A stretch of DNA of 64,000 nt from Candidatus Thioglobus sp. MED-G25 (GTDB taxonomy: Bacteria > Pseudomonadota > Gammaproteobacteria > Arenicellales > UBA868): contig NTKC01000002.1 of the NCBI GenBank assembly GCA_002456995.1, positions 1-64,000 on the forward strand, in the 5' to 3' direction. Below are positions 2,064 to 27,947 of the stretch, piece after piece; the stretch's first letter is position 1, and every line of letters begins with the position of its first letter. Below the pieces are notes generated by a model that had not been told where the DNA came from, searched no databases, and saw only the letters and a program-made list of their open reading frames with translations. The position numbers and the translations under genes were made by a program.

Positions 2064-2981
2064 ATGAAATTAATTGTTCACGGCCAGCAGGCATTCGGCA
2101 AATCGGTCCTAGAAGCCCTTTTGGGTCGAGGGGAGATAATCTGTGCCGTTTTCTGCGCGCCTGACATCGATGGCGGCCGACCGGATCCGCTTAAGGTGTT
2201 TGCACAGGACCAAGGATTGCCTGTATACCAGCCGAAAAGTTATAAGGACCCGACTGTGTGGGATCAGATTAGGTCGCTGGAAGCTGACCTGTGTGTCATG
2301 GCGTATGTTACCTTGATGGTCCCGGAGGAAGCGTTAAATGCGCCTCGTTTGGGGACAATTCAGTACCATCCTTCGCTGTTGCCTATGCATAAAGGACCCA
2401 GTTCAATCAACTGGCCGATTATTAATGGAGAGAATAAAACAGGATTGAGTATTTTCTGGCCGGACAACGGTCTGGATACTGGCCCGATTCTGTTGCAGAA
2501 GGATGTGGTAATCGATCCGGATGATACCTTGGGATCACTGTATTTTAATCATCTGTTTCCCATGGGGGTCGATGCAATATTGGAAGCTGTCGATTTGGTG
2601 CGGGATGGAACAGCGCTGAGATTAAATCAGGATCCAGCGAAGGGTTCCTATGAGGGATGGTGTCAACGTGCTGATGTAGAGATTGACTGGGTTCAGTCGA
2701 TGGATGTGGTCTACAACTTGATTCGAGGTGCCAACCCTCAGCCCGGTGCCTGGACAACACTCAACGGACAACCAGTCACCATCCTGGATAGTAAAAAGGC
2801 TATCGGATTTGCTAATAGTGACCCGGGTTCAGTCGTTGAGGTAGATGCCGATGGAATCAGTATTGGTTGTGTCGAGGGCGCAGTTCGTGTCGAGAAATTT
2901 AAGCCAGAGGGAGCTGGAAAAATGAGTGCTAAGGAGTTTCTAGAGCACTACCGTATAGAACCGGGTGCTCGGTTTGGGTAG
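2064..2981 (+). CDS. Stand-alone formyltransferase / 10-formyl-THF hydrolase-like protein (FDH N-terminal domain type)
   Basis: This 305-residue protein has the two-part layout of methionyl-tRNA formyltransferase relatives: an N-terminal formyl-transferase fold (about 1-190) and a C-terminal OB-like domain (about 205-300). It resembles the hydrolase domain of animal 10-formyltetrahydrofolate dehydrogenase (ALDH1L1) more than Fmt: the segments YHPSLLP, INWPIING, FWPDNGLDTGP and LYFNHLFP are of that type. The catalytic His (H102) and Asp (D138) are present, while the Asn of the Fmt triad is Gln (Q100); ALDH1L1 has Ile there, as I recall. It follows frc by 48 bp, so a role in moving a formyl group between CoA, tetrahydrofolate and water is likely, but the acceptor is not shown. 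The cell's fmt gene is not in this window. The start has a modest GGAGT upstream. Confidence 0.75.
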   Translation: MKLIVHGQQAFGKSVLEALLGRGEIICAVFCAPDIDGGRPDPLKVFAQDQGLPVYQPKSYKDPTVWDQIRSLEADLCVMAYVTLMVPEEALNAPRLGTIQYHPSLLPMHKGPSSINWPIINGENKTGLSIFWPDNGLDTGPILLQKDVVIDPDDTLGSLYFNHLFPMGVDAILEAVDLVRDGTALRLNQDPAKGSYEGWCQRADVEIDWVQSMDVVYNLIRGANPQPGAWTTLNGQPVTILDSKKAIGFANSDPGSVVEVDADGISIGCVEGAVRVEKFKPEGAGKMSAKEFLEHYRIEPGARFG

Positions 2982-3033
2982 CTAATCTCCAGGCAACTTT
3001 AGATGTTTCCACAAAAGCCATGTTCAGTATCGC

Positions 3034-4821
3034 TTGAATCTGATCTTAGGTGTGACTGAATCCTCATTTTTTAGGCGAAAGGATCAGTTGGGTTCAACAC
3101 TTGAATCAACCGCCTCGGTTGCGGAATTGGTACTGTCTGAATTCGATAAGTTTTATCTTGAGTTTCAGCAACTAACAGCAGCTGCTAAGTCCGCATTCGA
3201 AAAACGAGAATACCAAATCTCCCTTCGTATCAGTGAACAGAAGCTGGCACTTTACAGTACCAGTATGTATTCCCTAAGTGAGCGTCTCTCTAATTCATTT
3301 CCTGTGACCTTGCAGGAGTCTTCACTCTGGGATGCCATTGAATCCGATTATCAGAAGTTCGTAAGCGTTCGGTATGAAGCTGACCTCGGAATTGCGTATT
3401 TCCATTCTGTGCGTCGGGCAATCTTTCGAAGTGAATGGAATCCAGTTGCATATTCATTTGGTATTTCTGTCGACAGGCGCGCTGCCGATTCTGACTATTT
3501 ATTTTGTGCGGTTATTGGCGGGGTGATGACCCACGAGGTTGTGGTCGATATTCTGTCTGTTCCCAGGTTCAGTGTGCCTTATCGTGATACGGAAGCAGAT
3601 GCTGCGAATGTAGCCAACCGGGTGTCAGAAGAACTTCAACGCCTTCATCCTGAGCAAGCTGCACATAGTGTAGAGGTGATCAAGGGAGGGTTCTACCGGA
3701 ATCGCGGTGTCTATATCGTTGGTCGAATAGTCCTGACTAATAACGCAGTAATACCACTTATCTTGGCGTTGTTGAACAGCGAGGACGGTATTTACGTCGA
3801 CGCTGTTCTGACAAAAGAGTCCACGGCACATAATCTTTTTAGCACAACGCGAGCAAACTTCAACGTAACGAATGATAAGTACCACGAGGTGTCTGAGTTT
3901 TTGTACAACATTATGCCTAACCGCCCATTAGGGCTTCACTATTCTACGATCGGATTCAATCACTTCGGTAAAGTGGCAGTGATGGACGAGCTGAAATCAG
4001 AACTGGTGTCCCTAGATGTATCTTTTAGTAGGGCGATCGGCTACCCCGGGACGGTTGCTATTGGATTCCACTCTCCAGATTCAACCTATAACTTAAAAGT
4101 AATCAGGAACAAACCGACTGCCCAGTACAAATGGGGTGAGTTCGAGGGGCTTGACCGTGTATTGGCAAAATATAGTCAGGTTCACGATATTAATCGTACG
4201 GGAAGCATGTTGGATAACATCATTTACTACAATGTGAAGTTAGAGCGGAAGTGGTTTGACGATGAACTCCTGCGCGAGCTTCTTTATGAGGCAAGCGAGA
4301 CCGTGACAGAGCAGGGTAACTCTATAGTTTTCAAGCATCTTATTGTCCAAAGACGTATGACGCCGCTGCCGGTTTACCTAGAAACAGCCTCACCAGAAGA
4401 CTGTGAGGTGGCAGTTGTGAATCTTGGATACTGTATAAAAAACAATACAGCGGCAAACATTTTTAATCGTGACCTAGATGCGAGAAACTATGGTGTTGGC
4501 GGTTTTATGCGCGTGTACCTATTTGATTACGATGCATTGACAGCGTTCACTGAAGTAAAAATTCGTAGTAATAGAGACCGGTATGATGGTGAAGAAGACA
4601 TTCCTGACTGGGTTTTTGAGGATGGCGAGGTGTTTTTGCCTGAGGAAATAGAATGGGGCTTAAGAATCCCAAGTCGTCGTCTTAGGCAATTATTTAGAAA
4701 AGTTCATGGTGATCTCCTGCGGGTTGATTACTGGGAGCAGATCCAAGAACAACTACAGAAGGGCAGGGTGCCCAGTGTGCGTGTGTATCCGGAGCGCGAC
4801 CAGTTGCACTGGAAATGTTAA
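3034..4821 (+). CDS. aceK: Isocitrate dehydrogenase kinase/phosphatase
   Basis: AceK phosphorylates and dephosphorylates isocitrate dehydrogenase and so diverts isocitrate into the glyoxylate shunt. The 595-residue frame is close to the usual 570-600. Recognisable blocks are GFYRNRGVYIVGRI near residue 220, HYSTIGFNHFGKVAVMDEL near 300, and a conserved acidic C-terminal part with DIPDWVFEDGEVFLPEE. The first possible start is TTG at 3034; GTG at 3052 is an alternative, and neither has a convincing Shine-Dalgarno. In enterobacteria aceK follows aceBA; here no aceA or aceB is adjacent, so the gene is separated from the shunt enzymes. acnA, which makes isocitrate, lies about 20 kb away. Family assignment is firm; the start is not. 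Confidence 0.93.
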   Translation: MNLILGVTESSFFRRKDQLGSTLESTASVAELVLSEFDKFYLEFQQLTAAAKSAFEKREYQISLRISEQKLALYSTSMYSLSERLSNSFPVTLQESSLWDAIESDYQKFVSVRYEADLGIAYFHSVRRAIFRSEWNPVAYSFGISVDRRAADSDYLFCAVIGGVMTHEVVVDILSVPRFSVPYRDTEADAANVANRVSEELQRLHPEQAAHSVEVIKGGFYRNRGVYIVGRIVLTNNAVIPLILALLNSEDGIYVDAVLTKESTAHNLFSTTRANFNVTNDKYHEVSEFLYNIMPNRPLGLHYSTIGFNHFGKVAVMDELKSELVSLDVSFSRAIGYPGTVAIGFHSPDSTYNLKVIRNKPTAQYKWGEFEGLDRVLAKYSQVHDINRTGSMLDNIIYYNVKLERKWFDDELLRELLYEASETVTEQGNSIVFKHLIVQRRMTPLPVYLETASPEDCEVAVVNLGYCIKNNTAANIFNRDLDARNYGVGGFMRVYLFDYDALTAFTEVKIRSNRDRYDGEEDIPDWVFEDGEVFLPEEIEWGLRIPSRRLRQLFRKVHGDLLRVDYWEQIQEQLQKGRVPSVRVYPERDQLHWKC

Positions 4822-4887
4822 TTACAACTGCTCGTTACGGCTTATCGACGTAATTAATTTTGTGATGAGGTATGTTTGCGTTGTGAG

Positions 4888-4906
4888 ACATAAATTTCAT
4901 TTATGT
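4888..4906. repeat. 8-bp perfect inverted repeat after aceK
   Basis: ACATAAAT and ATTTATGT are separated by TTC, 66 bp beyond the aceK stop. There is no following T run, so it is a poor intrinsic terminator; it could be a protein site. The rest of the 4822-5031 gap shows no gene. Confidence 0.4.
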
Positions 4907-5031
4907 GCGCCGTAAAACTTTCTTACTGGTTAAATTAAGCAAAAGCAGTTAGTTTCCCGCACATTACTTTGGAACCTGCCTGATACCCCAGATTTGGGTA
5001 CCAGACTACAAATTCCCCCGAGGCCTGGTTG

Positions 5032-6042
5032 ATGAAAGTGTGTGTGGTGGGTGCGGGTGCGATCGGTGGCTACATGGCAATACGCATAGCGTCTGTTGGC
5101 CACGAGGTGTCTGTTGTTGCGCGTGGTCCCCATCTTGCGGCCATAAAAGCCAATGGCATGAAGCTGATAGAAGGGGATCAGGAGACGATTGCCCAGGACC
5201 TAAACGCAACCGACAACATCAGCGACTTGTGTCCGCAGGATATCGTGCTGATGGCACTCAAGGCCCATCAAATCGAACCAATTGTAGATAAACTGTCGTC
5301 TGTAATGGGTTCGGAAACTGTAATGGTGACCTTACAAAATGGAATTCCATGGTGGTATTTTCAGAATTTTGCAGGGCCTTATACGAATAGACCCGTTCTA
5401 TCTGTAGATCCACACCGAAAACTATTCGATGGTATAGATCCTGACTGTCTGATTGGTTGTATCGCCTATCCAGCAACTACCATCTCTGAACCGGGGGTTG
5501 TACGGCATATAGAAGGCAATCGATTTCCGGTTGGAGAACTCGATGGACAGGAAAGTGAACGTGTACAACGAGTATCGACATTGTTTGAAGAGGCAGGCTT
5601 TAAGTCTAGAATTCTCGATGATATCCGATCTGAAATTTGGTTGAAGCTCTGGGGCAATCTGACCTTTAATCCTATCAGCGCACTGACCCATTCCACACTT
5701 GAAGATATCTGTCGGTTTCCGTTAACGCGGGAATTGTCCGCTAATATGATGATAGAAGCGCAGACTATCGGTGAGCGACTTGGAGCCCACTTTCGAGTCC
5801 CGATGGAAAAAAGAATTGCCGGTGCAGAGGCTGTAGGCTCGCATAAAACATCAATGCTTCAGGATGTCGAGCAAGGCAAACCCCTGGAAATAGAGGGCAT
5901 GCTCGGAGCGGTGATTGAATTGGCGGCGTTAACCAAGATCGAGGTCCCGACACTTAAGGCACTTTATGCCTGCGTCAGCTTACTGGACCAGACTGTACAA
6001 GCCAGCCGCGTGAAGATAAAAGGAATCCAGGACAGGCAATAG
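5032..6042 (+). CDS. 2-dehydropantoate 2-reductase family protein (PanE/ApbA-like)
   Basis: This family uses NADPH to reduce ketopantoate to pantoate for coenzyme A synthesis; some members reduce other 2-oxo acids. The 336-residue protein opens with the Rossmann motif GAGAIGG (7-13), has LQNGI near residue 102, and the conserved segment WLKLWGNLTFNP with the catalytic Lys at 205. Glu in KPLEIEGMLG near residue 285 lies in the position of the substrate-binding acidic region. ATG at 5032 is preferred over an in-frame TTG three bases earlier. No panB or panC is nearby, so it may be a paralogue acting on another 2-oxo acid. It converges on phnX. Confidence 0.82.
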   Translation: MKVCVVGAGAIGGYMAIRIASVGHEVSVVARGPHLAAIKANGMKLIEGDQETIAQDLNATDNISDLCPQDIVLMALKAHQIEPIVDKLSSVMGSETVMVTLQNGIPWWYFQNFAGPYTNRPVLSVDPHRKLFDGIDPDCLIGCIAYPATTISEPGVVRHIEGNRFPVGELDGQESERVQRVSTLFEEAGFKSRILDDIRSEIWLKLWGNLTFNPISALTHSTLEDICRFPLTRELSANMMIEAQTIGERLGAHFRVPMEKRIAGAEAVGSHKTSMLQDVEQGKPLEIEGMLGAVIELAALTKIEVPTLKALYACVSLLDQTVQASRVKIKGIQDRQ

Positions 6043-6129: not shown

Positions 6130-6978
6130 TTAAGGCTTCTCGCCTCGACCAAGCCGAATATTGACATCCTCAATGACGTCCGGCATCTGTTGCCAGGTAT
6201 CAATTACGTAGTGTGCACCTGCTTTTTGAAGTAAGTCCCGCGTGTGTGCCAAGCGTCGCTTGATTTCGTCTTCCGACAAGCTGTCGGCTTCTTCGAGTGT
6301 GTCCATATCCATGTAGTTGCTATAGCGCGCAATACCTACACCCCAGCATCCCGCTTCCAAGGCTTCTCCAACCCCCGATACCGTGTCATCGACTTTGATT
6401 ACGGATTGGATCGGGTGAACGTCCATGAGATCTAGATTACGGTAGACCATAAAAGGTTTTGGGCGGGCACCATTGATTACTTCATCGCCAGCAACTGAAG
6501 CATCAGGTGTGTAGCCCTGTTTGCGCGCATCCTCTTCAAGGATGTCTACCATGCTGCGTACAAAGCCGGTAGAACTCCCGATCTTGATGCCTTGTTTCTG
6601 CAATGACTGCGTCGTTTCGGCAACCAGTGGTAGAAGTGTTGTGTAATTACGAAGGCAGTCTAGTTGCAGGGGTACAAAATCTTCGAACATCCGGTCAACA
6701 TTCGCCTGATTAGGATATTGTCCGTGGATGCCGTGCCATCGTTCTCGAATCTCTGGAATCTCGGTCATTGCTTTGATATGAAGATCTTTACGCAGCCCCA
6801 TTGGCCCACGAGCCTCGGACATCGTGACGTCGACGCCGTGATTTTGAAATACTTGGACAAATACAACAGCCGGGGCAAGTACATACGCGTCAGCTGTGGT
6901 ACCGCTCCAATCAAGAATTAGACCTTTCACTTGGCCTGTATAGCTGCGGTTATAGACGAAGTTTTGTCGGATTGTCAT
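6130..6978 (-). CDS. phnX: Phosphonoacetaldehyde hydrolase (phosphonatase)
   Basis: PhnX cleaves the C-P bond of phosphonoacetaldehyde, giving acetaldehyde and phosphate, as the second step of 2-aminoethylphosphonate breakdown. It is a HAD-superfamily enzyme: the nucleophile D23 sits in LDWSGTTAD, where ordinary HADs have DxDGT. The PhnX-specific Schiff-base lysine is K64 in PMGLRKDLH, with H67 nearby; these match Lys53 and His56 of the Bacillus enzyme as I recall it. Later HAD motifs are GSSTGF near residue 133 and KVDDTVSG near 195. Length 282 is close to the family norm. A clear AAGGAG lies 7 bases before the ATG. It is downstream of phnA on the same strand with a 137-bp gap that holds an inverted repeat. 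Confidence 0.93.
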   Translation of the reverse strand: MTIRQNFVYNRSYTGQVKGLILDWSGTTADAYVLAPAVVFVQVFQNHGVDVTMSEARGPMGLRKDLHIKAMTEIPEIRERWHGIHGQYPNQANVDRMFEDFVPLQLDCLRNYTTLLPLVAETTQSLQKQGIKIGSSTGFVRSMVDILEEDARKQGYTPDASVAGDEVINGARPKPFMVYRNLDLMDVHPIQSVIKVDDTVSGVGEALEAGCWGVGIARYSNYMDMDTLEEADSLSEDEIKRRLAHTRDLLQKAGAHYVIDTWQQMPDVIEDVNIRLGRGEKP

Positions 6979-7115: not shown

Positions 7116-8378
7116 TCAGCCAGCTGAATGATTGAGCGCAGCGTCGAAAATATCATAGTTGCGTAAAGTGGTGCTGGTCCGCAGTTGAGATGCCGGGCGA
7201 TTCAGAATAAACGGTACCCGCTGTTCGGACAGTCCCCCATGTGAGCGTAAAGGCTCGGAGAGCGCTGATAAGTCATGATACTGTTGAGAATGACCTAGAA
7301 CCGACTCAGCGCTGGAAATCACCACGATATGACCCACCCGGTCCGGGGGCAGGGAAAATCTCTCACACGCTAGCGGGCCTTCAAGTACTAGCTCGATCCC
7401 TTTTTGTGCTGACAATTTGTGGCACACCGGTTGTACATCGGCAGGGTCGGCCAGGTAGATTGTGGCGAATCCACCCAGCGCACCATGATGAACAACGTAT
7501 GGATCTGTGATTGGCAGGATGATTCGGAATCTGTCAGAGGCTAATAGTTCTTCGATGAGCGGTTTCAAATAGACAATATTCGGTTGTCCGGCTGAATCGT
7601 GTTTGGCTTTCATACCGTGATCGGCAGTCAAGGCAATGACGGCATCATGTGCTTGCATTTTTATAAGATGATGATCGATCATGCTGTAGAACGCATCTGC
7701 TGCCGGGGTTCCGGGCCCGTGTTTATGTTGGATGTAGTCACTGGTTGATAGGTAGAGTATGTCAGGTGCCCAGGTATCCAGAAGTTTCAGACCGGTGGAA
7801 AATACATACTCAGACAGTGCGCCGCTGTAGACGTCCGGTGGTGGCAGGTCAGTTAGCTGGTCGGCATCGTCTATACCGTTTTCACTCTGTGTTGTCAGTT
7901 GACATTTTTCGGCGGAAAAACAGATCGCACTACCTTGCTCAAAATCTAGTTCATGACCAAGCATCCGCCTGAGTTTATCTTTAGCCGTGATGACGGCGAT
8001 TCTTGCACCTTGATCTTGGAATGCCTTGAAAATCGTACCCACACGTAGAAATGCAGGATCATTCATCATCACTTCAGCGTCCGACCCAAGGTCGTAGAAA
8101 AAGTTGCCTGATATGCCATGAATGACCGGTGGTGTTCCAGTCACAATCGAAATGTTGTTGGGGTTTGTAAAACTGGGAATTGTGGCATCAGCGGTTCGAA
8201 ACAACCCACGGTTTTTGATCGAAGCCAGATAGGGCATCTGACCGTTCTCAATGGCACGGTCGATATAACCACCCCCATCCGATAGCGGGTAGCCGGGTTC
8301 ACTGCCGTCCAGGCAGATCACAACGACGGGTCTGTCGGGCCACCGGTACTTCCGATTATTGCAGGTCACATAACGCAT
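7116..8378 (-). CDS. phnA: Phosphonoacetate hydrolase
   Basis: PhnA hydrolyses phosphonoacetate to acetate and phosphate and belongs to the alkaline phosphatase superfamily with two zinc ions. The 420-residue protein has the nucleophile Thr at T71 in PSFTNPNN and the metal ligands D214, H218 (SDYIQH), D253-H254 (ADHGM) and H380 (SHGGLSE). Their spacing agrees with the Sinorhizobium enzyme residues I remember (T68, D211, H215, D250, H251, H376) at a shift of 3-4. The ATG has no Shine-Dalgarno, but the reading frame of the truncated phnW ends 7 bases upstream, so translation may be coupled to it. It lies between the phnW stub and phnX on the same strand. No phosphonoacetaldehyde dehydrogenase (phnY), the usual source of its substrate, is present. 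Confidence 0.92.
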   Translation of the reverse strand: MRYVTCNNRKYRWPDRPVVVICLDGSEPGYPLSDGGGYIDRAIENGQMPYLASIKNRGLFRTADATIPSFTNPNNISIVTGTPPVIHGISGNFFYDLGSDAEVMMNDPAFLRVGTIFKAFQDQGARIAVITAKDKLRRMLGHELDFEQGSAICFSAEKCQLTTQSENGIDDADQLTDLPPPDVYSGALSEYVFSTGLKLLDTWAPDILYLSTSDYIQHKHGPGTPAADAFYSMIDHHLIKMQAHDAVIALTADHGMKAKHDSAGQPNIVYLKPLIEELLASDRFRIILPITDPYVVHHGALGGFATIYLADPADVQPVCHKLSAQKGIELVLEGPLACERFSLPPDRVGHIVVISSAESVLGHSQQYHDLSALSEPLRSHGGLSEQRVPFILNRPASQLRTSTTLRNYDIFDAALNHSAG

Positions 8379-8385
8379 GGATATG

Positions 8386-8529
8386 TTAGGTCATACAACA
8401 GGCCAGGGACCACAGGTGCAGTATCGCTTGTTTGGCGGTGGTTGATGTTCTGAGTGGCCCGGGTGTGAGAAGCAAGGGTTCACCACCAGGTGAAGTCGCG
8501 ATTGCCAGATGTTCTTGATCGTTTTTCAT
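8386..8529 (-). pseudogene. phnW: Amputated phnW (2-aminoethylphosphonate:pyruvate transaminase), N-terminal stub
   Basis: This 47-residue frame carries the signature N-terminus of PhnW, LLLTPGPLRTSTTAKQAIL at residues 19-37, where known PhnW proteins read LLLTPGPLTTS followed by a similar helix. After residue 37 the similarity ends abruptly (HLWSLACCMT and stop), and about 320 residues including the PLP lysine are missing. phnA begins 7 bases after the stop. A deletion joining the start of phnW to the region just before phnA explains this. The stub could still be translated and could deliver ribosomes to phnA, which lacks its own Shine-Dalgarno. An ATG at 8529 is the most natural start; the frame opens further upstream at a TTG (8571). 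Confidence 0.75.
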
Positions 8530-8615
8530 CGGTTTCAAATTGGGTGTGTAGATGAATGTTAAGGCACTCAAAGATCATTAAGCCCCTTGGGGGTATTGGG
8601 CGCTATGAAATTTGG

Positions 8616-9389
8616 TTATGGGTTTAGCGAGCTGCGGGTCAGAACACCTTCTGCTTTAACTTTACCTTTGCGTAACTGTTTGAGCTTCACGACCAGATAG
8701 TCCAATTTTGGAGACAGCCAGTAGTACAGCTGCCGGCTGGACTTCCGATCTATAAAATAGCGTAGGCTTTCTACGGGCTGTCCTTCAATGGTAACCGTTT
8801 CGGCTTGCTCCAGTACAAATTGATACGGACGAAGCTGGTCACCCTCGTGTACTGTGTAAAGTGGCTCGGTCACACCTTGCCGAATGTCAATCCGGGCCAT
8901 GAGTTCGAACGAGAGTGGATCCAGCACGTTGGGTGTCAGTGGCATGGTCAGCTCGGTACCGCGATAGTGGACGTGGCTTGTACCGGATGACCAGTCGAAT
9001 TCAATCCGAATAGCGCGATTACTATCTTCGGCACCATCGTCTGTGGTATAGAGATTGGGTCGTATTCGACCTGAATGCAGCTGAAAATGTGAGTGCTCGA
9101 CCACCGTACCGATGCCTGTGAGCGACCCCAGTCCCTTGAGTCGTGTCGATGCGGTTAAGTGATAGTGTTGGCCAGAACGGATCAGTTCAACTTTTCGTTC
9201 AATCTTAAGGCCGGAGCGGGTGATTGCGTAATCAGCTGAAAATGGTTCAATACCTTTGCCACCGCTCGCTTGTGCCGACAGCAGAACCAAAATCAGCAGC
9301 CATAGGGGTGTGCCCTTGGGGCATAAGCAGCGCGTGCTACGCTTAATATGGCGCAGTGGATACCGGAAAATGCAGGAGATATGAAGCAC
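8616..9389 (-). CDS. DUF3108-type exported protein of unknown function
   Basis: The protein matches the DUF3108 pattern: an N-terminal hydrophobic signal (WLLILVLLSAQASG), a mature part beginning PFSADYAITRSG, then a beta-rich body with VLDPLSFELMARIDIRQG and a C-terminal segment with YWLSPKLDYLVVKL. That layout points to a periplasmic or outer-membrane-associated protein; the family's role is not known to me. The start is uncertain. The frame opens at ATG 9419, overlapping the maoC-like gene by 28 bp, and a GTG at 9389 lies directly after that gene's stop. Both give an unusually long stretch before the signal sequence. It is probably co-transcribed with the MaoC-like gene. Confidence 0.65.
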   Translation of the reverse strand: MLHISCIFRYPLRHIKRSTRCLCPKGTPLWLLILVLLSAQASGGKGIEPFSADYAITRSGLKIERKVELIRSGQHYHLTASTRLKGLGSLTGIGTVVEHSHFQLHSGRIRPNLYTTDDGAEDSNRAIRIEFDWSSGTSHVHYRGTELTMPLTPNVLDPLSFELMARIDIRQGVTEPLYTVHEGDQLRPYQFVLEQAETVTIEGQPVESLRYFIDRKSSRQLYYWLSPKLDYLVVKLKQLRKGKVKAEGVLTRSSLNP

Positions 9390-27041: not shown

Positions 27042-27947
27042 TCAGGTTTCGATATCCCGTGCTTTATTTTTAGCGGTCCTGCTGACGATAAAGATTCCGC
27101 TGAGTACCAACACAAGTGCAGTCGGTATTCGCCAGTCAGGCACCTCATGCAGGAAAAATATCCCCCAGGCTGCACCAAAAACCGGAATGATGTAGTTGAC
27201 CTGTGAGAATGTGGTTGCGCCAACACGGTGGATCAGATAGTAGAAGATCAGAGAGGCGAGCGCGGTGGCAACAATACCCAGGATAAGAACCGAAATAACT
27301 GCCACTCCATCTGGACGCAGCGTCCATGGTTGTTCCAGTACGATTGCCATCGGTAGTACCCAGATCAGACCAGCGAGTGTAGAACCGGTCGACATGACTG
27401 GTCCGGGCAGGCGTGCAAATCGCCGGGCAAAGGTCGTTGAGACAGCGTAGCTTACCGCGGCGATAATGATGGCAAACTGTGCGATGACGGCCGTGTCAAG
27501 GCTATGTAGTGCATCGGCGCCTATTAAAATGATCAGACCGCCGAATCCGATCATGATGCCCAGCCCGGTGCCAAAATTGAAACGTTCATCGGCAATGAAC
27601 AAGTGAGCAAGCATTGCTGTTGCAACGGGCATCGTTCCCATCAGAACGGCGGTAAGGCCACTGTCGATATAGACCTCGCCCCAGCTGATCAGTGTAAAAG
27701 GCAGAGCGGTACCAAATAATCCGAGTACCGCGAAAATCGTCCAGTTTTTTATGTCGGTGGGCAAACCCTGTCGTTTAAATGCGAGGTAGCCAGCCAGAAT
27801 GACCACAGCGACCGCGATGCGTGCTGCTGTCAATGTGTAAGGTGGAACTGTCGAGATCGCGAGTTTTATGAAAAGAAATGAGGAGCTCCAAATCAAACCT
27901 ACACCAAGGAGCAGTAAGTAGTCTCGCGGTGAGACAGCCGTGTTCAT
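27042..27947 (-). CDS. EamA/DMT-family transporter
   Basis: A 301-residue integral membrane protein with about ten hydrophobic segments arranged as two EamA repeats. The first starts LLLLGVGLIWSSSFLFIKLA and the second begins near residue 150. The drug/metabolite transporter superfamily moves amino acids, nucleosides, sugars and other metabolites, and the substrate cannot be read from sequence. It is convergent with acnA across 12 bp. The start ATG 27947 sits directly before the charged-then-hydrophobic first helix. It may belong functionally with the upstream minus-strand genes, but a 99-bp gap separates them. Confidence 0.85.
   Translation of the reverse strand: MNTAVSPRDYLLLLGVGLIWSSSFLFIKLAISTVPPYTLTAARIAVAVVILAGYLAFKRQGLPTDIKNWTIFAVLGLFGTALPFTLISWGEVYIDSGLTAVLMGTMPVATAMLAHLFIADERFNFGTGLGIMIGFGGLIILIGADALHSLDTAVIAQFAIIIAAVSYAVSTTFARRFARLPGPVMSTGSTLAGLIWVLPMAIVLEQPWTLRPDGVAVISVLILGIVATALASLIFYYLIHRVGATTFSQVNYIIPVFGAAWGIFFLHEVPDWRIPTALVLVLSGIFIVSRTAKNKARDIET

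Follow-up and report, generated by a model that had tools for sequence, protein, structure and literature searches.

The phnW remnant and its neighbours

The locus lies on the reverse strand of the window, by which we mean the whole 64,000-nucleotide stretch analysed (contig NTKC01000002.1 of Candidatus Thioglobus sp. MED-G25). A 47-codon open reading frame (ORF; 8389-8529) ending in a TAA stop at 8386-8388 is followed by phnA, for phosphonoacetate hydrolase (7116-8378), and phnX, for phosphonoacetaldehyde hydrolase (6130-6978). The upstream flank holds a DUF3108 gene (PF11306; 8616-9419, also on the reverse strand), which occupies the same place in the genus-mates G005 and G003 and, as far as known, lies outside the phosphonate pathway.

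Both hydrolase genes scored above the cut-offs of their family models, with 506.2 bits for PhnA (TIGR02335, cut-off 407.6) and 291.3 bits for PhnX (TIGR01422, cut-off 220). PhnA matched the solved enzyme 3szy (E=1.2e-147) and has kept its motifs, and PhnX aligned along its length with solved enzymes. Residues D23, K64 and D198 of PhnX fell on conserved positions of the solved Bacillus-type enzyme (1rql/1fez), and we take them to be the nucleophilic Asp, the Schiff-base Lys and the Mg-binding Asp, respectively.

The original prediction described the short ORF as a frame with the N-terminal signature of PhnW that stops 7 bases before phnA, and this was borne out. The phnA ATG is at 8378, 7 bases separate it from the remnant stop, and residues 17-41 of the translation matched the PhnW models NF010006 (E=8e-05, 21.9 bits) and TIGR02326 (E=0.0012, 18.1 bits). 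These scores are below the full-length cut-offs (296 and 400.8 bits, respectively); for comparison, the full-length PhnW of G005 gave 517 and 475 bits. A truncated PhnW N-terminus had thus been correctly recognized, but its length, put at about 37 residues, needed correction: codons 1-38 are homologous to PhnW and the last nine are out of frame. The PhnW part therefore stops well before the PLP-binding lysine, which, placed by motif, we assume to be residue 205 of G005 PhnW.

Comparison with the intact phnW of genus-mates

The locus was compared with those of three genus-mates (G003, G004 and G005), which together with the window's genome (G000) make up our genus sample. In all three, an intact phnW of 383 codons immediately precedes phnA, in the order phnW-phnA-phnX (the phnX of G003 runs off its contig), and their phnW genes are 87-89% identical to one another. 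In G004 (L035) the phnX-phnA-phnW block adjoins a phosphate transporter gene (PHO4) and an FAD oxidoreductase gene rather than the DUF3108 gene, either because the locus has moved or through an assembly join.

Pairwise alignment of the window with each sister gave a single gap of exactly 1,025 bp, corresponding to phnW nucleotides 115-1139 of 1149. The junction lies at 8415/8416 on the reverse strand, 8416 being the last PhnW base and 8415 the first base past the junction. The stub aligned without gaps to the phnW start in all three sisters and the sequence after 8415 to the end of the same phnW, so that its likeness to PhnW is more than chance. What is left of the old 3' end are its last 13 bases (8403-8415), ten coding bases and the stop codon, now in another frame; the stop itself reads TGG in the window and TGA in the three sisters. 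Since 1,025 does not divide by three, the stub reads on for nine out-of-frame codons to a new TAA.

The sister sequences read CTGCAC|GACT at the left end of the gap and CAGCAA|CTGTGG at the right end, and the window reads CTGCAC|CTGTGG. The two ends have only GCA in common (GCAC, assuming an ancestral C in place of A). Such letters point to what was probably a short-homology deletion at 3-4 nt of microhomology, arising through end-joining or slippage.

Outside the gap, the window is collinear with contig C13 of G005 over about 61 kb, and the loss of phnW was thus a local event. Within this block phnW is the only G005 gene seen as a stub in the window; two further genes, one for a GntR-type regulator and the other an ORF of 297 codons, are without a full counterpart there. 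With one gap and collinear flanks, the stub derives from phnW at the same syntenic place, as a phnW pseudogene should.

The proposed deletion of most of phnW hence held, with 1,025 bp missing relative to three of three sisters, each with an intact phnW-phnA-phnX, and no second PhnW in the assembly. The suggestion that phnY went with it did not, since phnY is absent from the locus in all genus-mates. A conserved, separately evolving small gene was sought in the relatives and none was seen; those that keep the gene have a full-length phnW.

Some other gene differences between the window and G005 were observed in the collinear block. In G005, aceK (isocitrate dehydrogenase kinase/phosphatase) is reduced to 152 codons and its panE-like neighbour is missing (L036 8541-8999); both are whole in the window (3034-6042), the reverse of what happened to phnW a few kb away. 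The GntR-type regulator of G005 lies between a 306-codon ORF and aceK (L036 9033-9719) and is absent from the corresponding window interval (2981-3034); it scored 100.9 bits with the phnR_burk model TIGR03338, below the cut-off of 271.5. Conversely, the window gene at 27042-27947, from its sequence presumably a DMT-type permease, is without a counterpart in the G005 contig.

Erosion of the stub

We have then investigated whether the stub has kept the residues that PhnW conserves. The stub stretch holds 16 columns in which the PhnW of the family is conserved at 95% or more, and the stub departs from five of these (D to E, W to L, T to R, V to A and M to I). Over the same columns, 26 of 28 intact PhnW loci (27 genomes) had no change and the other two had one each, a comparison that concerns a single lineage and for which rank 1 of 29 is the best attainable. 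With the branch dS at 0.105-0.233, the probability of five or more changes was 0.0004-0.012 at an omega of 0.16, a constraint similar to that of phnA, and 0.32-0.92 at an omega of 1, the neutral case. A codon model fitted to the stub, which offers only 38 codons, was not significant (omega 0.70 against a background of 0.40, p=0.52), nor was one of its 23-codon core (0.655 against 0.184, p=0.24), although the direction agrees with erosion. By its sequence, then, the stub is an eroding pseudogene rather than a fresh assembly cut, and the extent of erosion would fit neutral drift over most of the window's branch, although this dating is rough.

These data bear on whether the organism really has an intact phnW that was lost in assembly or binning. 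A draft of 33 contigs and 86% completeness leaves room for such an artefact, but the GCA common to the junction ends is far too short for a graph collapse, which needs a longer word, and window positions 8001-9000 contain no N. Moreover, five near-invariant changes and a mutated old stop are unlike a false cut in a healthy gene. We consider an artefact of this kind very improbable. From the short overlap of the ends and the erosion of the stub, we judge that the organism itself carries the deletion and that the event is probably an old one on the scale of the window's branch. Less probably, the junction could reflect a chimeric consensus or a variant within the population.

Translation of phnA

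The stub might have been kept as a leader ORF, with ribosomes terminating 7 nt before phnA and reinitiating there, phnA having no Shine-Dalgarno (SD) sequence of its own. The ORF is indeed open and its TAA suitably placed. In the sisters, 24 nt separate the end of phnW from phnA with no SD in sight, so an ancestral coupling that the stub could inherit is plausible. The absence of an SD before phnA, which the original prediction had noted, was confirmed, but it is not a consequence of the deletion, the three sisters lacking one as well. Starts of this kind are in fact usual in the window: an SD 4-mer is missing from 20 of the 31 long ATG-start ORFs, its frequency (11 of 31) comparing with 18.9% at random places. 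The nearby stop, taken as telling, turned out not to be, for whichever frame is read, a stop falls between -15 and +10 of the phnA ATG. Drifting neutrally along the branch, a 47-codon frame would also stay open with a probability of 0.31-0.59. Neither feature, then, argues for selection, and none of the relatives showed a conserved small gene of this type. A scan of 8300-8700 found no sigma-70-like promoter site.

On these grounds we regard a selected leader ORF as unlikely. Translational coupling to phnA may have been inherited from phnW, but a leader-peptide role is not needed to explain the stub. A broader proposal would have PhnA and PhnX working as a pair in this lineage since the loss of phnW, their substrates coming from phosphonates different from 2-aminoethylphosphonate (imported phosphonoacetate, say, and phosphonoacetaldehyde made by some amine oxidase or transaminase), with the stub as a translated leader coupling ribosomes into phnA; it seems to us improbable as well.

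Search for a replacement of PhnW

The assembled genome (1.61 Mb, 33 contigs, 86% complete) was searched for a full-length phnW, as the original prediction had suggested, and none was found, either at E<=1e-20 or above a model cut-off. The PhnW models returned five matches, none near the cut-off, one of them a SufS-like gene by sequence. As far as this 86%-complete assembly extends, the functional PhnW that the phnWYA and phnWX pathways require is thus missing.

The best PhnW-like match in the genome was a class V aminotransferase (G000:C2:51144-52397), with 132 bits for the PhnW-AepZ model TIGR03301 (cut-off 361); its neighbour is, as we read its sequence, a carbamate-kinase-like ORF. This paralogue might have taken over the PhnW function, but the protein lies below every PhnW cut-off and its best model was pyridoxamine-pyruvate transaminase, again below cut-off. 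In addition, it is present at 96-98% identity in all three genus-mates, which retain PhnW, and was therefore not gained as a replacement. We find such a takeover quite improbable.

Other routes to the substrates were surveyed likewise. PhnY, whose search had also been proposed, was above cut-off in no genome of the genus, and the C-P lyase PhnJ was found in none of the four. Phosphonoacetaldehyde from endogenous phosphonate synthesis was rejected as a source, PEP mutase being over cut-off in none of the four genomes. The phosphonate-binding protein PF12974 occurs in one of the four, which is not the window's genome. For PbfA (NF049939, cut-off 525 bits), the best score was 271.5 (L192) among nine of the ten class III aminotransferases of this incomplete assembly, the partial tenth (L199) having been left out. 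The genome encodes ten DAO-domain proteins; with no PbfB, PbfC or PbfD model among the NCBIfam matches, any of them would be no more than a candidate for such a role.

Dependence on a second phnW or on imported phosphonoacetate, as originally put forward, is an incomplete pair of options: phosphonoacetate would feed PhnA only and not PhnX. We would rather suppose that the two enzymes are now fed from other sources, PhnA by imported phosphonoacetate and PhnX by phosphonoacetaldehyde from an amine oxidase, a lyase or a broad transaminase that acts independently of PhnW.

Selection on phnA and phnX

Codon models of phnA and phnX were fitted to three genomes (window, G004 and G005). G003 was omitted because its phnA frame break coincides with a scaffold gap of 15 N. 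On the window branch, omega was 0.158 for phnA (background 0.165; omega of 1 rejected, p=3.7e-07) and 0.050 for phnX (background 0.142; p=8.3e-19), these values being averages over the whole branch, such that a recent deletion would give the same figures from selection before the loss. Intact and under purifying selection, both genes very probably still serve the cell in the absence of an adjacent PhnW.

The opposite view is that the whole pathway is decaying, phnW having died so recently that phnA and phnX have had no time to follow. In the textbook pathway both enzymes depend on the phosphonoacetaldehyde made by PhnW (PMC8154272), and the lack of PhnY and PhnJ in the genus also fits this view. 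Against it, the stub erosion is compatible with neutral drift over most of the branch, whereas omega is not raised in either gene. General decay is possible but doubtful in our opinion. The erosion suggests that the deletion came early on the branch; in that case selection would have retained phnA and phnX without a neighbouring phnW, and this retention is the one point at which the locus appears to go beyond simple gene loss.

PhnW, PhnA and PhnX in the family and at other loci

A protein search of 33 family genomes (E<=1e-20) found PhnW in 28, that of G001 being only a 27% paralogue, and not in the window's genome or in G006-G009. PhnX occurs in 14 of the 33, five of them without PhnW (the window's genome, G001, G006, G007 and G008), and PhnA in 25, three of them without PhnW (the window's genome, G007 and G008). 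PhnY above cut-off was confined to one other genus (16 of the 33 genomes).

In G007, G008 and G006 (L167, L168 and L169, respectively), the PhnW-less phnX adjoins a 303-codon EamA-type permease gene at the usual place of phnW, whose product is possibly a phosphonate transporter.

PhnA loci were surveyed as well, 80 named loci being kept out of 97 that encode relatives, with flanks of up to 4 kb. A full PhnW lay in the fetched stretch of 38 loci, one had a partial PhnW at a contig edge and 41 had none, this last number being an upper bound since many flanks were ended by contig ends. An N-terminal phnW stub was seen at none of the other loci. The partial PhnW beside PhnA in L118 was considered as a second case and rejected, as no more than 95 bases separate it from the end of its contig. 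An independent phnA-phnX pair was found in a Methylomirabilota draft (L126 3959-6077), where the two genes adjoin and the 4 kb preceding phnA hold no PhnW.

Discussion

We are confident that the stub is best read as the dead remnant of phnW left by a single 1,025-bp deletion, with phnA and phnX kept intact and constrained. In an ancestor of the window's genome, one internal deletion would have removed phnW codons 39-380, the PLP lysine included, and shifted the frame, producing a 47-codon ORF devoid of enzyme function. The remnant would then have drifted, while phnA and phnX behind it would have been retained under purifying selection. As such, the loss of phnW is an ordinary gene-inactivating deletion with one modest puzzle, that of the retained phnA and phnX.

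The window's phnA and phnX are clear members of the phnW-phnX and phnW-phnY-phnA clusters for 2-aminoethylphosphonate hydrolysis, the stub being what is left of the beginning of phnW in the sister arrangement, phnW-phnA-phnX. The window departs from these clusters in that phnW is inactivated and phnA and phnX stand together without phnY. A marine genome survey holds that neither PhnA nor PhnX can serve 2-aminoethylphosphonate use without PhnW and puts the co-occurrence of phnA and phnX per genome at 6-12% (PMC9381506). Clusters with phnX and no phnW are known from another report, fed by the FAD-dependent oxidoreductases PbfB, PbfC and PbfD (PMC10590968). They resemble the window in having a phosphonoacetaldehyde hydrolase gene without an adjacent phnW, but no FAD oxidoreductase adjoins the window's phnX. 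PbfA is named as another source of phosphonoacetaldehyde (PMC8154272).

Stand-alone PhnA loci offer a second parallel, since PhnA could in principle use imported phosphonoacetate without PhnW and 41 of the 80 surveyed loci have no PhnW in the flank. Unlike these, the window retains its ancestral neighbour phnW as a visible remnant. A Salmonella study describes growth on phosphonoacetate with no need for phnA, against the simple reading. In a literature search, judged by title or abstract, we found no printed case of a phnW remnant.

At this locus the entry enzyme for 2-aminoethylphosphonate degradation has been lost cleanly and in a way that can be dated. Together, the window's genome and the four family members with PhnX but no PhnW make phnX and phnA imperfect markers of the 2-aminoethylphosphonate pathway, and surveys taking either gene as evidence of 2-aminoethylphosphonate use would miscall the window's genome. 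If it is true that the constraint on phnA and phnX postdates the deletion, an unrecognised source of their substrates would exist.
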